A DNA stretch of 64,000 nt from Nitrospina sp. (GTDB lineage Bacteria; Nitrospinota; Nitrospinia; Nitrospinales; VA-1). Each line of letters starts with the position of its first letter. The stretch's first letter is position 1. The stretch spans positions 1 through 64,000 of the forward strand of contig JABHTG010000141.1 in the NCBI GenBank assembly GCA_018697205.1, read 5' to 3'. Under the pieces are notes generated by a model, which made no database searches, had not been told where the DNA came from, and was given only the letters and a program-made list of their open reading frames with translations. Shown here piece after piece: positions 11,819-40,799 of the stretch. Made by a program: the position numbers and the translations under genes.

Positions 11819-12616
11819 ATGCCTACAAAAAAAAAGTCCTCTAAAACAAAAGGACCCAACAAAAAAAAAGTCTCTAAAAAAATGCAGAAAAAGACTGCCA
11901 AAAAGAAAACCACATCCAAAGCCAAGGTTCAAAAAAGCACTAAAACAAAGATAAAGAAAAAAGCAAAAACAAAGACAAAAGCAAAGACAAAAACAAAGAC
12001 AAAAACAAAGACAAAGATAAAGACAAAGATAAAGAAAAAAACAAAAACAAAGACAAAAGTAAAGACAAAAACAAAGACCAAAACAAAGACAAAAACAAAG
12101 ACAAAAGCAAAGACAAAAGCAAAGACAAAAGCAAAGACAAAAGCAAAGACAAAAGCAAAGACAAAAGCAAAGACAAAAGCAAAGACAAAAGCAAAGCTTA
12201 AATCAAAAGTAAAAGCAAAAGCGAAGACTGAAAGCCCTCAACCCAAGATTGTCAAACCAAAAAAAATAAAACTGGATACTGCGACAATCAAAATCAGACA
12301 ACAATTGGTAATCAATCAACAGGAGTTACTCAATATTATTCAATCAAGTCACTCTGCAGAACGGAATACAGCCGAATCAAATTTCAGCAATGAAATCGAC
12401 ATGGCATCTAGTTTGGAAGGAAGAGAAATGATGTTCCAACTCACAAGCCGGGACAGAAACGAGTTAAAAATGATACAAGAAGCAATTTACAAAATCGATC
12501 ATGGAACCTACGGAATTTGCGAGAGTTGCTCAAAGGGGATAAGCTCAAAGCGATTAAAAATCTTACCTTTGTCCTCCCTATGCATTGAATGTAAAGAAGC
12601 TATGGAACAAATTTAA
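11819..12616 (+). CDS. DksA/TraR zinc-finger protein with long Lys/Ala/Thr repeat tail
   Basis: 265 residues. Residues 1-145 are almost entirely Lys, Thr and Ala, in KT then KAKT periodicity, like histone H1 or bacterial histone-like tails. Residues 155-265 are DksA/TraR-like: a coiled-coil segment with NEIDMA in place of the DxxDxA tip, then a zinc finger Cys234-X2-Cys237-X17-Cys255-X2-Cys258. DksA acts in the RNA polymerase secondary channel. The basic tail would also bind DNA or RNA, so it may be a nucleoid-associated regulator (inference). The first Asp of the tip is Asn, so it may not work like classical DksA. The SD GAGGAG is 8 bases upstream. Confidence 0.85.
   Translation: MPTKKKSSKTKGPNKKKVSKKMQKKTAKKKTTSKAKVQKSTKTKIKKKAKTKTKAKTKTKTKTKTKIKTKIKKKTKTKTKVKTKTKTKTKTKTKTKAKTKAKTKAKTKAKTKAKTKAKTKAKTKAKLKSKVKAKAKTESPQPKIVKPKKIKLDTATIKIRQQLVINQQELLNIIQSSHSAERNTAESNFSNEIDMASSLEGREMMFQLTSRDRNELKMIQEAIYKIDHGTYGICESCSKGISSKRLKILPLSSLCIECKEAMEQI
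12101..12196 (+). repeat. 12-bp minisatellite, eight perfect copies
   Basis: ACAAAAGCAAAG repeats eight times without a mismatch, encoding TKAK units. It is preceded from about 11940 by degenerate six-base ACAAAG-type variants. The tract stays in frame, so copy-number change would lengthen or shorten the basic tail by four residues. The coding strand has almost no T across roughly 190 bp, a strong strand asymmetry. Confidence 0.95.
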
Positions 12617-12632
12617 GGAATTAGTTAGGGCC

Positions 12633-15188
12633 CTATTTACCGTGACATTTTTTAAATTTTTTTCCACTCCCACAATGGCAAGGATCATTTCGGCCTACTT
12701 TTTTATCATCTCGCCGAATCGTTGATGGTTTGATCTCTTCTGAATTGGTTCCTCGATGCTCTACTATCTTTTTTGACTGATTTTGTTCAGCAGAAAGCTC
12801 GGTACCTTCTTCAATTTGAACTTTGAATAGATACTCAGTAACACCTTCACGAATCTGATGCATCATTTTACTGAACATATCAAACCCTTCTTTCTTATAC
12901 TCTGTTAAAGGATTTTTCTGTGCATAACCGCGTAATCCAACTCCGTCCTTCAAATGATCCATTCCAAGCAAATGATCTTTCCACAAATTGTCAACAACTT
13001 GAAGCATGATCATTTTCTCTAGTTGCCGCATCATATCGGGATCAATTCCACGTTCCTTTGCTGCGTAGCAGTCTTGAATAGAATTCATAATGGCATTATG
13101 AAGTTGGTCTCGATCACAGGTTTCTAGTTCAATGCTTTTTGTGCTTGCAATCTCAAGGACCCCTTCTTTTTTTTCAACTAAAACGGAAAATTGTCGCATC
13201 ATATAATCATTTAGGCCTTGAATATCCCATTCCTCTGGGTATATTTTTTCGGGTGCGATATCATCTAAAACCGCACCTACCAATTCTTCGGCCATCTCCA
13301 TAAGCATTTCTCTATGATCTATATTTTTCAGGATCTCCCTTCGCAACCCATAAAATATCTCTCGCTGCTTATTCATTACATCATCATATTCAAGAAGGTG
13401 CTTTCGAATATCAAAGTTGTGGGCTTCAACTTTTTTCTGAGCATTAGCCACGGCTTTACTTACCATTGGATGTTCTATAGGTTGGCCGTTTTCCATACCA
13501 AGTTTTTCCATAATCCCTGAAATCTTTTCCGAACCAAAAATTCTCATTAAGTCGTCTTCGAGCGACAGGTAAAAACGTGACGATCCTGGATCACCCTGCC
13601 TTCCAGACCGTCCTCTCAACTGGTTATCAATCCGACGACTTTCGTGTCGTTCTGTACCTGTAATATGCAATCCCCCTAATTCAGCTACCCCTTCACCTAA
13701 AACTATATCCGTACCCCGACCAGCCATATTAGTTGCAATGGTAACCCCTTTTTTTTGCCCAGCTTGGGATATAATTTCGGCTTCCTTTTCGTGCTGTTTT
13801 GCATTTAGAACATTATGCTTAATACCATATTTTTTTAGTTGGTGGCTTAACTGCTCGGACTTTTCTATTGATATTGTACCTACAAGCACTGGTTGTCCTG
13901 ATTCGTTACAGTCACGTATTTCTTCAATAAGTGCATCAAACTTTTCTTTTTCTGTTCGGTAGATCAGATCAGAAGAGTCATAACGAACCATTTCTTTGTT
14001 AGTCGGTGCAACAATAACCTCAAGTTTATAAATCGAGTTAAACTCTTCTGCTTCGGTATCGGCTGTGCCTGTCATTCCAGAAAGCTTATCGTACATACGA
14101 AAATAATTTTGAAAAGTAATGCTAGCTAATGTCTGATTTTCATTTTCAATATTGACACCTTCTTTAGCCTCCAAAGCTTGATGAAGCCCATCACTATATC
14201 TCCGTCCCGGCATCATTCTACCGGTAAATTCATCGATAATTACTACCTCTCCGTTATCCACCACATAGTCAACTTCATTTTTAAATAAAGCATGTGCCTT
14301 AAGTGCTTGCTGAATACAGTGTAGAGTCTCTATATTCTGAGGATCATAAAGGTTTTCAATACTAAGAAGTTTTTCAACCGTCTCAATTCCTTTATCGTTT
14401 AATGCGGCAGTTTTAGATTTTTCTTCAACCTGATAATCTCTTTCTTTACGTAATTTAGGAATAACCTTACAGGCTTCGCTATATTTTAGTGTAGACTCCT
14501 CAGCCGGACCAGAAATAATCAGTGGTGTTCTTGCTTCATCGATAAGAATTGAATCAACTTCATCGACGATGGCAAAGTTTAATTCTCTCTGGACAAACTG
14601 TTCAAAAGAAAACTTCATGTTATCTCGAAGATAATCAAATCCAAATTCATTATTTGTTCCATAAGTAACATCGCAGCTATAGGCTTGTTTTCTTTCCTCC
14701 TCAGGCATATCGTGGTAGACACGCCCTACCGTAAGACCTAAGAACTGATAAATCTCTCCCATCCACTCGCTATCCCTTTTAGCCAGGTAGTCATTAACAG
14801 TAACAACATGAGAACCTTTACCACTTAGAGAGTTGAGATAAACTGGAAGAGTTGCAGCAAGCGTCTTTCCTTCTCCTGTTTTCATCTCAGCTATTTTTCC
14901 TTCGTGCAAAATTATTCCACCAATCAATTGAGCATCAAAGTGACGCATTTTAAGCGTTCGAATTCCAACTTCCCTTACTACTGCAAAAGCCTCTGGCAGG
15001 ATATCGTCAAGGGTGGCACCTTTTATTAGCTTCTCTCTAAACTCCTCAGTTTTGGCAAGAAGTTGATCGTTACTTAGATTATTAATAGAGTTTTCGAGAA
15101 GGTTTATCTGATCAACTATGATCTGTATTCTCTTAATCTCTCGACCATTTCTTGTGCCAAAAAATTTTTTTAATAAACCAAGTACCAT
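12633..15188 (-). CDS. secA: Protein translocase ATPase SecA
   Basis: An 851-residue motor that drives preproteins through SecYEG. Nucleotide-binding domain 1 has [15 protein letters not shown] near residue 100 and the DEAD-type [16 protein letters not shown] near 210. The preprotein cross-linking domain follows. Nucleotide-binding domain 2 has NMAGRGTDI near 490 and [13 protein letters not shown]. The C-terminus carries the zinc-binding SEC-C tail [19 protein letters not shown], which binds SecB or ribosomes. Length is normal for a compact SecA. An M23 peptidase gene lies just upstream on the same strand. Confidence 0.98.
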
Positions 15189-37854: not shown

Positions 37855-38019
37855 AAAGTTACCTAATATCAGATAATAAAACTCCCAATTCAAGACCAGC
37901 CTATTAACATAGTTGGTGATGCTATTAGACTCTCTAACTAAGGCGACCGGATTATAGCACTTTACTTGCTAGTTAACTCTAAGTGATTAATTTTTTTGGT
38001 TTTTTTTTAAATATGATAG

Positions 38020-38089
38020 TATAATCTGGCCTTATTTAGGGTCGAGAACAGGGATCTCTCGGCATTTATTTTTTTGCCAATTCGACCAA
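38020..38089 (+). promoter_or_regulatory. TATAAT box and folded 5' leader of the repeat protein
   Basis: TATAAT at 38020 predicts transcription from about 38032. Between 38040 and 38087 the RNA can form a closing stem (GGTCGA with TCGACC), an inner stem (GAGA with TCTC) and a third stem (GGCA with TGCC around a U-rich loop). The fold ends two bases before the ATG, and no SD is visible, so the structure itself may govern translation. Confidence 0.45.
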
Positions 38090-39778
38090 ATGGAAACTAT
38101 CATTGAAAAAATTATAGGCGTTATTGAAACTGTCTGGTTTGAGCTTGCTTCTATCCTGAACCTGGAAGAGGTGGGAGCCTTCGACTCTCTTCAACCTTTT
38201 TTAGCTAATATTTTGTCCGACCCCCTTCATCTCGGATTAACTTTGGCTATTTTAATGGGCATTCCATACACTATTCACAAAATTAAAAGCGCCTATAGAG
38301 ATAAGGAAAAACGACTGGATGCTTTGATGCAAGAACTGGCTGAAGAAGATATCGCGGATAGCAAACCCTCATTCCAAAATCAAAGCATGGGAAGCCCTAA
38401 GTTTAATCAATCTATAGACAAATTAGATGAAGAAGAATATGGTAATGAATTCGAATCACCAAGCTCAGAGAAAGCAATTATCACACCAGACAACATCAAC
38501 AAAACTCCGCAGGAAATATTTAAAAATCGAATGATTTCAGACAATGATTTCGGTTGGGAAAGTAGTCCCGATGAATGGGATGAACTTTATGATTATATTT
38601 CCAAACCATTCCAAATAGATAAGCCTAAACAAGAAAGTGAATCGACAACGGCTCCTAAACAAAAAGATGTGTCGACAACGGTTCCTAAAGAGTCAAGAAA
38701 ATCAGAGATCGCCCCAGAAAACCTTAGTCAAACACCGCAGGAAATATTTAAGAATCGAAGAATTTCTGACGACGATTTTGGCTGGGAAACTAGTGTAGAA
38801 GAGTGGAATGAACTTTATGATTACATTTCTAAACCATTCCAAGTAGATAAACCAAAGGATGATTCATCGGGTGAGAAAGTTTCTCCTGAGTCAAAAGAAG
38901 AGGTCTCTACTGAACCTTCACCAAAAGTGGCACTAACTGAAAATATTAATCAGGAAACAGAAGTGCCATCAAACATTGGCGTTGATGATCTTGTCGAGCA
39001 AATTATAGAAAAAGTTGTTTCAGACAATGAAGAAACTAATAAAGAACCATCAAATATTGGTATAGAAGAGCTTGCTACCCTGATTGAAGATGAATCATCA
39101 TTAGACATTAACAAGACAACCGAGACATTAGTCCATCAGGAAGAAACAACTGCTGGTATTGACGAAGAAATTGAACCAACAACTGAAGAATCTTCAAACA
39201 TTGGTATAGAGGAACTTGCTACCCTGATTGAAGGCGAAGAGCTAGACACCTCTCAGATTAAGTCTTCTCCAGCCGATAACTCAGAAGTTGAGACTAAAGC
39301 ATCCCCTCCTGTTCGTCAACGTGTTGAGCTCACTCTCGAAGAGGTAGAACCTGAGCTCGAATCACAGCCAGCGTTACAAACTCCAATAAAAGAGGTAGAG
39401 CCTGAACTCGAATCACAACCAGCGCTACAAACTTCAATAAAGGAGGTAGCGTCTGAAATAAAAACACCTTCTGCCGGCCCATTACTTAACAGCATGTTAA
39501 ATTCTTCAGTTTCAGCAAAAACTGATGCCTTGGTCAGCAAACTTAAAACGTTTCAAAGTGAACTAGAAACTCGCTTTCAGTCATTAGAAAAGGATACGGA
39601 AGTCCCAGCAGAAACTACCTCAACCACCGAAACTCTCCGAAAAAAACAAGGTGATTATCAACCCGCTAACCTAAGCTATCAAAGCAAACGAAAGTCGGGG
39701 TCTAACAAAGAATATTTACGTCAATTAGAATCATTTATTTTTATGGCAAGACAAAAAAACAAAAAAACCGACGTATAA
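38090..39778 (+). CDS. Acidic repeat protein with N-terminal membrane helix
   Basis: 562 residues; no recognised family. A transmembrane helix at about 46-62 (LHLGLTLAILMGIPYTI) precedes a short coiled segment. Two 50-residue repeats (131-180 and 197-246) share TPQEIFKNR, ISDxDFGWE, EWxELYDYISKPFQ and DKPK. Three SNIG-type motifs follow (274, 311, 349: SNIGIEELATLIE). Two 17-residue copies of EVEPELESQPALQ lie near 400-432. The C-terminus is basic (SKRKSGSNKEYLRQLE, ending ARQKNKKTDV). The linkers are Glu/Ser/Thr-rich and disordered. It is followed 46 bp later by a MinD-like ATPase, suggesting a positional or scaffold role (inference). Confidence 0.7.
   Translation: METIIEKIIGVIETVWFELASILNLEEVGAFDSLQPFLANILSDPLHLGLTLAILMGIPYTIHKIKSAYRDKEKRLDALMQELAEEDIADSKPSFQNQSMGSPKFNQSIDKLDEEEYGNEFESPSSEKAIITPDNINKTPQEIFKNRMISDNDFGWESSPDEWDELYDYISKPFQIDKPKQESESTTAPKQKDVSTTVPKESRKSEIAPENLSQTPQEIFKNRRISDDDFGWETSVEEWNELYDYISKPFQVDKPKDDSSGEKVSPESKEEVSTEPSPKVALTENINQETEVPSNIGVDDLVEQIIEKVVSDNEETNKEPSNIGIEELATLIEDESSLDINKTTETLVHQEETTAGIDEEIEPTTEESSNIGIEELATLIEGEELDTSQIKSSPADNSEVETKASPPVRQRVELTLEEVEPELESQPALQTPIKEVEPELESQPALQTSIKEVASEIKTPSAGPLLNSMLNSSVSAKTDALVSKLKTFQSELETRFQSLEKDTEVPAETTSTTETLRKKQGDYQPANLSYQSKRKSGSNKEYLRQLESFIFMARQKNKKTDV
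39341..39442 (+). repeat. 51-bp in-frame tandem repeat
   Basis: Two 51-bp units, 39341-39391 and 39392-39442, differ at only a few positions, and a third partial unit begins at 39443. They encode the EVEPELESQPALQ repeats of the acidic protein. Confidence 0.9.
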
Positions 39779-39824
39779 CGAAATGCCTCTATCAAAATAG
39801 CATAAAGTGAAATAGCAAATAACC

Positions 39825-40799
39825 ATGGCATCGACAGTAAACATAATACCCGTAGGCGGAGGAAAAGGAGGGATTGGGAAGAGTTTAATCTCTACCAATC
39901 TTGCTGTAGGAATAGCTCTTAGCGGACAAAAGGTTGTTCTTATGGATGGTGATTTTGGAGCTTCCAATTTACATGCACTTCTTGGTATAAGCCACCCTCT
40001 ATATGGATTTCAAGATTTATTTATCAGCAATAAATCTCCAAACTCACTACTAATAGAAACAGGCATAAGTAATCTCAAATTCATAAGTAGTGCCGGTGAT
40101 AATCCTGGCAGCGCAAACATTGATTCAGAACGTGTAAAAAAAATAATTTCGTTCATCAAAAAACTTAATGTAGATACAGTTATCCTTGACCTTGGACCAG
40201 GGACAAGCTTTAACGTTCTAGATTTTTTTAATATAAGTTCTCATGGCCTCGTAATGAGTTCCCCTGAAACAACATCCGTCATGAAAACTTTCAGCTTTAT
40301 TCGCTCTGCATTATTCAGGCGAATGAGTAGAAAGCTTAAAAATATTTCCGCTCTGCAAAAACTGGTGGATCATTCCAAACCATCCAGCACAGATTTAGAA
40401 ACATATAACGTAACCACATTAAGAGAAAATGTTAAAAAAATTGACCAAACTCAAATTGAAAAGGTCGAAGAAATAATAAATGAGTTCAAGCCCGCAATCA
40501 TCATAAATCGAGTCCGTAGTAAAAAAGATTTGCTAGCGGGAGATAACCTCGTTAACTTGGTAAAAAAATATCTAGATGTCGAACTCAACTATATTGGGTA
40601 TATTGTTGAAAGTGACAAAGTTCGTGAATCAGTTGAAGATATGGTTCCATTCCTCATAAAAAATCCACAAAGCAAACCTTCTGAAAACCTTCAACAAATA
40701 ATTGGGACATTGACCAATACTGACCTTCACCTAGTGAAGGAAGATGGAAGAATTTATGTGTCAAAACAGGTTCGACTGAACTCAGGCTGGGATGCATAG
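39825..40799 (+). CDS. MinD/FlhG-like P-loop ATPase
   Basis: 324 residues. A deviant Walker A GGGKGGIGKSLISTN (residues 11-25) and switch DGDFGASNLHALLG place it in the MinD/ParA/FlhG group that forms ATP-dependent dimers on membranes. ILDLGPGTSFN is the Walker B region. An insert with many charged residues (about 175-215) distinguishes it from MinD. I see no C-terminal amphipathic membrane-targeting helix. The closest resemblance is the FlhG/YlxH branch that positions pili or flagella, but no such genes are in the window. The upstream acidic repeat protein is a likely partner. Confidence 0.85.
   Translation: MASTVNIIPVGGGKGGIGKSLISTNLAVGIALSGQKVVLMDGDFGASNLHALLGISHPLYGFQDLFISNKSPNSLLIETGISNLKFISSAGDNPGSANIDSERVKKIISFIKKLNVDTVILDLGPGTSFNVLDFFNISSHGLVMSSPETTSVMKTFSFIRSALFRRMSRKLKNISALQKLVDHSKPSSTDLETYNVTTLRENVKKIDQTQIEKVEEIINEFKPAIIINRVRSKKDLLAGDNLVNLVKKYLDVELNYIGYIVESDKVRESVEDMVPFLIKNPQSKPSENLQQIIGTLTNTDLHLVKEDGRIYVSKQVRLNSGWDA

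Follow-up and report, generated by a model that had tools for sequence, protein, structure and literature searches.

Organization of the locus

The window analysed here, a 64,000-nucleotide stretch of DNA from a Nitrospina sp. contig, contains two adjoining genes on the forward strand (Table 1). The first encodes a protein of 562 residues, hereafter called the partner, and the second, separated from it by 46 bp, encodes a MinD/FlhG-class ATPase of 324 residues. Since homologues of both are conserved in four families of the order, sequence comparison identifies the two open reading frames as real genes. The same pair had been described in a first-pass annotation of the window, whose start at 38020 takes in approximately 70 bp of leader before the partner ORF (38090).

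The region upstream of the pair contains an intergenic block, ACTCTAAGTGATTA-A-TTTTTTTGG (ACTCTAAGTGATTAATTTTTTTGG), that is nearly invariant in the 8 aligned loci of the genus, while the adjoining sequence drifts. It is probably a part of the promoter region of the pair; a TATAAT-like box is located at about 38020–38025. The block has one exact match in the whole genome and none other within 3 mismatches; such a single copy suggests a promoter or operator specific to this gene and not a regulon site. A hairpin in the 5′ leader received no support (z-score −0.07).

Table 1. Features of the partner–ATPase locus (positions refer to the window).
Feature	Positions	Strand	Basis
Conserved intergenic block 5′ of the pair	37976–37999	+	Aligned in 8 loci of the genus
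Partner gene, 562 aa	38090–39778	+	ORF; homologues directly 5′ of the ATPase gene in 49 further genomes of the order
Partner N-terminal region, residues 1–80: predicted helix, TM segment (~46–65), basic juxtamembrane stretch HKIKSAYRDKEKR	38090–38329	+	Hydropathy, positive-inside rule, conservation peak
Module copy 1, residues 132–177, genus-restricted	38483–38620	+	Repeat and homologue comparison
Module copy 2, residues 208–253	38711–38848	+	Repeat and homologue comparison
Conserved coil, residues 481–500, LVSKLKTFQSELETRFQSLE	39530–39589	+	Conservation peak across the order
Conserved C-terminal end EYLRQLESFIFMARQK with basic tail; proposed ATPase-docking peptide	39689–39766	+	Profile A1; docking inferred
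MinD/FlhG-class ATPase gene, 324 aa	39825–40799	+	ORF, Pfam, motifs

Architecture and conservation of the partner protein

The partner possesses, in this order, an N-terminal amphipathic segment, one transmembrane (TM) segment, an acidic tether, a coil and a conserved C-terminal end. Its single strong hydrophobic segment (approximately residues 46–65) is followed by an acidic low-complexity tail, in agreement with the first-pass description of a membrane-anchored, acidic and disordered protein, the disorder being judged by composition. In 47 homologues with a strong TM segment the tether has a mean net charge of −0.19 per residue, and the last 12 residues of the partner form a basic end (mean net charge +2). 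Positive-inside charge favours a cytoplasmic C-terminus in 42 of 47 homologues, suggesting an N-out/C-in topology. Complete homologues range from approximately 246 to 752 residues; one of them (L065) possesses an additional N-terminal hydrophobic, signal-like segment, and in a single genome (L114) the C-terminal motif is present twice in tandem. No Pfam or NCBIfam model matches the partner.

To evaluate conservation, the window protein and 49 homologues were aligned. The mean frequency of the top residue peaks in residues 1–80 (0.40–0.48), in the coil at 481–500 (0.52) and in the end at 541–560 (0.59), where the conserved stretch lies within residues 541–556 and has the consensus YxxLLESFIFxxxQKK. 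The first-pass annotation had instead considered a 50-residue module, FGWE...KPFQ, as the defining feature of the protein. Both copies of the module are indeed present, with 34 of 46 core residues identical, and correspond in DNA to a 158-nt direct repeat (79% identity, spacing 228); three SNIG motifs (residues ~294, 321 and 369, two of them within a 73-nt DNA repeat) and a 51-nt tandem duplication are also found in the gene. However, most columns of the module score 0.17–0.23 in the same alignment, among the less conserved in the family, and among the upstream proteins read the two-copy module was encountered, besides the window, only in G051 and G053, which belong to the same genus. A different segment, AIxDLQxEMExTIxxLTxQ, recurs in other lineages, where one or two copies are present. 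Judging by these conservation patterns, the core of the partner is the N-terminal helix with the TM segment, the coil at 481–500 and the C-terminal end at 541–556, not the FGWE module. Assignment of the module to a known domain was dropped, as it has no match in Pfam, NCBIfam or PDB.

A loose tryptophan/acidic pattern occurs 19 times, compared with 5.2 in shuffled sequences. An internal motif of this kind acting as a universal docking repeat was rejected, as about half of the homologues have no tryptophan in the tether. In the homologues compared, the acidity and layout of the tether are retained while its inner repeats turn over, and the same turnover with acidity and layout kept has been described for HubP (PMC12918733).

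HubP/FimV proteins resemble the partner in other respects as well, combining a short periplasmic part and one TM segment with a cytoplasmic region that is long, acidic and unstructured and varies in both length and repeat content. They also possess a periplasmic LysM-like domain and a C-terminal FimV/TPR domain (PMC12918733), whereas neither domain gave a Pfam match in the partner or 16 family members; in addition, the partner has a dedicated ATPase encoded alongside. The partner may be a landmark or cargo scaffold, as put forward in the first-pass annotation.

The ATPase belongs to the ParA/MinD class

The second gene encodes a protein with a deviant Walker A motif (GGGKGGIGKS) followed by DGDFGASN and DLGPG. 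Core motif residues are conserved in 49 aligned sequences from the order, and the motifs for ATP-dependent dimerisation are intact. The Pfam models ParA (52 bits) and CbiA (47 bits) both score above cut-off, and the best relatives of solved structure are FlhG, FleN and MinD. The presence of the signature lysine and of the switch I and II motifs places the protein in the ParA/MinD (A/D) class, as first annotated.

Three more specific identities were considered and rejected. FlhG shares the ATPase class and provides the best-scoring solved structures; however, the same genome encodes a separate flhG (G000:C47) in a flagellar cluster fliR-flhB-flhA-flhF-flhG, true FlhG is only 22–24% identical to the window ATPase, whose gene lies beside a CCA transferase gene rather than in the flagellar cluster, and in a phylogenetic tree the sequences of the order form their own clade apart from FlhG, with some inner branches unsettled. 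The N-terminal DQAxxLR enhancer helix, a feature of FlhG/FleN (PMC12826062), was found in none of 59 ATPase-family sequences; it is recognisable as NQAxxLK in the true FlhG of G000 and G048, though not matched in that of G010. A canonical MinD acting with MinC is contradicted by a TIGR01968 equivalog score of 76.9 (cut-off 212.9) and by the lack of MinC in all 77 genomes of the phylum. Finally, a BY-kinase of the CapB/Wzc type is excluded by a TIGR01007 (eps_fam) score of 52.1 against a cut-off of 108, by the absence of an ExxRxxR motif and by the presence of one tyrosine in the last 40 residues, with no tyrosine cluster.

FlhG and MinD carry a C-terminal amphipathic helix for membrane targeting; in the ATPase of the window, no amphipathic basic helix was recognised among the 30 C-terminal residues. 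Its strongest basic amphipathic stretch is internal (residues 161–180) and may serve membrane or nucleoid binding. An AlphaFold model of the ATPase, built from only two sequences, had a mean pLDDT of 35 and was discarded. The same genome also encodes a 440-aa ParA-like protein with an HKGGVGK motif (G000:C121; L177:136–1458), located approximately 2 kb from the chromosomal ParA gene.

Conservation of the gene pair across the order

The ATPase was used as the query in 77 genomes of the phylum, most of them incomplete bins; 64 belong to the order of the window. It was found in 50 of these 64, distributed over four families, and more distant relatives occur outside the order. A contig scan of a public genome set yielded a single relative, from a Nitrospina metagenome bin. 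In all 50 ATPase-bearing genomes of the order a partner-type gene with a TM segment and an acidic region lies directly 5′ on the same strand (in 3 of the 50 a contig end truncates the 5′ part of the partner), so the linkage anticipated in the first-pass annotation holds in each of these genomes. The gaps mostly range from −4 to 69 bp, and most members of family f4 show an ATGA overlap of the start and stop codons. The flanks are themselves syntenic in many genomes, with ileS, trpS, an M50 protease gene and usually a family 2 glycosyltransferase (GT2) gene upstream and CCA transferase and esterase genes downstream; adjacency alone is therefore only moderate evidence within the order. In the stretches read around the pair, no gene for a cargo shows consistent linkage.

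Co-occurrence was followed with profile A1, built from the last ~27 residues of the partner. Of the 50 genomes with the ATPase, 49 have a single gene matched by it, which in every case immediately precedes the ATPase gene; the sole genome missed, G011, has a diverged C-terminal end. None of the 14 genomes of the order without the ATPase was matched, though several of them are cut by contig ends and hence little informative. Two additional weak matches (E 0.01–0.03) lie within frames some 25 codons long. G026, which is 96% complete, has neither gene between its intact GT2 and CCA transferase genes or anywhere else; G023 represents a possible second loss, its contig ending before the site. In G026 (L171) the site of the pair is filled by a GT4-like glycosyltransferase gene (12170–13099), as recognised by eye.

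Two genomes of a single genus (g8), G056 and G057, retain the partner at its usual site with no ATPase match anywhere in either genome, and the dependence of the partner on the ATPase is not absolute. The C-terminal end is masked in G057 (L099); because the G056 partner (L098) keeps a recognisable, partly conserved end, LLESYFLANKQNKNE, without an ATPase, this end may have another ligand. The next gene 3′ of the partner in G056 resembles asparagine synthetase and is followed by glycosyltransferase and methyltransferase genes.

The pair is real and old. The comparisons establish its conserved adjacency and co-occurrence with a single joint loss, the layout of the domains, the integrity of the ATPase motifs and the difference from FlhG. 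We consider it very likely that the two genes form a functional pair. The data suggest a previously undescribed two-protein system, specific to the Nitrospina order as far as the genomes of the phylum were searched.

The distribution of the pair bears on two functions that could be proposed for it. It might represent a second FlhG-like regulator operating with a HubP-like landmark in flagellar or pilus placement: its best solved relatives are FlhG/FleN, HubP with the same order of TM segment and acidic cytoplasmic region recruits FlhG, ParA1 and ParC (PMC12918733, PMC11620751), and most of these genomes have FlhA. However, the near-complete genomes G050 and G031, in which FlhA was not detected, retain the pair, whereas G026 has FlhA and no pair; considered together with the canonical flagellar cluster elsewhere in the genome, the low identity to FlhG and the lack of its enhancer helix, this renders such a role improbable. 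Placement of the division site in lieu of the missing Min system could be envisaged by analogy with PomXYZ of Myxococcus, which shows that FtsZ can be positioned by a ParA/MinD ATPase and its dedicated activators (PMC7993993), and would fit a phylum without MinC. But the pair is dispensable, being missing from the near-complete same-family genome G026, with the ATPase missing from two others, and no ftsZ or other division gene was seen near it; we regard this function as improbable to the same degree.

Proposed mechanism

We hypothesize that the two proteins constitute an A/D-ATPase/partner cassette with a spatial role, the ATPase being docked at the C-terminus of a membrane tether; taken as a whole, the chances of this proposal are about balanced. 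The partner would cross the membrane once, exposing a short N-terminus to the periplasm and a long, acidic and disordered tether to the cytoplasm; the conserved C-terminal end of this tether would bind the ATP-bound ATPase dimer. The ATPase, in which no typical terminal membrane-targeting helix was recognised, would thereby be brought to the inner membrane, while the N-terminal segment and the TM segment, perhaps with the coil, would set the place of the complex in the envelope. The pair probably recruits the ATPase to a particular envelope site. The role that we consider most likely is spatial: the pair would mark or position a structure associated with the envelope, in cells without MinC that already possess a separate FlhG and ParA. 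A function as a spatial organiser follows from the class of the ATPase and appears plausible, if slightly short of an even chance.

Docking by the C-terminal end of the partner is the element on which we rely with somewhat greater confidence, considering it probable by sequence and analogy. It is proposed because the free cytoplasmic end, namely the C-terminus given that the N-terminus is predicted to lie outside or in the membrane, is conserved and basic, and because there is a precedent in CapA, the C-terminal 30–50 residues of which activate the P-loop ATPase CapB, with a terminal or penultimate phenylalanine at the nucleotide (PMC3795738). Partners of A/D ATPases are reported to be very diverse and to act by a basic disordered terminal peptide (PMC10241942). 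However, this peptide is normally N-terminal in known systems (PMC10241942), which speaks by analogy against the C-terminal docking proposed here; McdB, for example, binds McdA through its N-terminal 20 residues (PMC12204374). MinD/MinE, McdA/McdB and PomZ/PomX likewise combine a MinD-class ATPase with a fast-evolving, largely disordered partner bearing a short conserved terminal peptide. The present pair differs from them in that the partner is anchored in the membrane by its N-terminal end and its conserved, basic-ended peptide is C-terminal, in a phylum without MinC.

Alternatively, the C-terminal end could bind a cargo, with the ATPase contacting the coil at 481–500 or the basic juxtamembrane stretch. 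The partly conserved end of the G056 partner is consistent with this arrangement, as is the division of tasks in McdB, where, besides the McdA-binding N-terminus, there is a C-terminal tryptophan required for the carboxysome (PMC11321042). Still, the presence of the end follows that of the ATPase from genome to genome, and an invariant end in a sister family (see below) precedes the ATPase despite an N-terminal half belonging to a different protein. We find the cargo-binding arrangement rather unlikely.

The Nitrospina group comprises important marine nitrite oxidisers, and a literature search for its cell organisation found nothing. Many ParA/MinD ATPases are orphans, with partners too variable to be recognised (PMC10241942). 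The pair provides one orphan ATPase subfamily with a partner and a precise candidate docking peptide.

Relatives outside the order and a possible link to polysaccharide export

The closest relatives of the ATPase outside the order (family f9, 38–41% identity) are encoded directly after a membrane protein gene. In the two f9 loci with the 5′ part visible, this gene encodes a Wzc-type co-polymerase with Wzz, GNVR and kinase domains and is preceded by a polysaccharide-export gene. Wzc-type proteins of the sister families (L082, L083, L084 and L096) carry extra membrane segments and a charged tail past the kinase domain, the tail being acidic in f9. In three genera the f9 tails are very different in length and sequence, and all end in the same twelve residues, QIKEWEKLLLID. 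In family f6 the ATPase also follows a Wzc protein with extra membrane segments, the lysine-rich tail of which ends in DDWDSFLNPKA. These comparisons suggest that this branch of ATPases is constantly accompanied by a membrane anchor with a tether and a conserved end, while the N-terminal half varies. The f9 proteins resemble the partner of the order in layout, with a different N-terminal half and the ATPase constant.

The chief rival to a spatial role is derived from these loci. In this alternative the membrane-recruited ATPase would control the synthesis of a polysaccharide or another envelope polymer by a CapA/CapB- or Wzc-like switch. The partner would act as a transmembrane modulator, with its C-terminal end setting off ATP turnover. 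CapA/CapB and Wzc would share with the pair a membrane modulator with a cytoplasmic C-terminal peptide acting on a P-loop ATPase, and the C-terminal peptide of CapA that activates CapB has a terminal or penultimate phenylalanine (PMC3795738); ATPase relatives in two sister families adjoin Wzc proteins with an added TM part and a charged tail, and a divergent GT2 gene flanks the pair in three of four families. On the other hand, in the stretches read within the order neither a Wzc nor an export gene is linked to the pair, and the GT2 gene stays in place in G026, where the pair was lost. Unlike these systems, the partner has no Wzz domain and the ATPase is of MinD-type sequence, with the low eps_fam score and the missing ExxRxxR motif and tyrosine cluster noted above. 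We therefore regard the polymer switch as unlikely, though clearly less so than the flagellar and division-site functions.

Returning to the spatial cassette, we tentatively propose, giving it a somewhat lower chance than the cassette itself, that it exemplifies a class of A/D-ATPase systems with reversed layout, comprising a membrane anchor, a tether that is acidic, disordered and free to vary in length, and a C-terminal docking peptide for the neighbouring ATPase. The tether and peptide would be portable, occurring by themselves in the Nitrospina order and as an addition to the polysaccharide co-polymerase Wzc in the sister family, so that one type of ATPase could be attached to different envelope machines. 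If the tether module is portable between a stand-alone anchor and Wzc, it would link envelope polymer export to the logic of A/D ATPases.

Further neighbours of ATPase relatives were recorded in four loci. In two f9 loci (L085 and L086) the ATPase relative comes after MotB-type genes and extends into a fused coiled-coil tail, several hundred residues long, in which Glu, Lys and Arg are abundant. In L087 and L095, which represent a further branch of the ATPase family, the next gene encodes a DnaJ-like protein with a helix-turn-helix-like C-terminal part, judged RodZ-like by eye.
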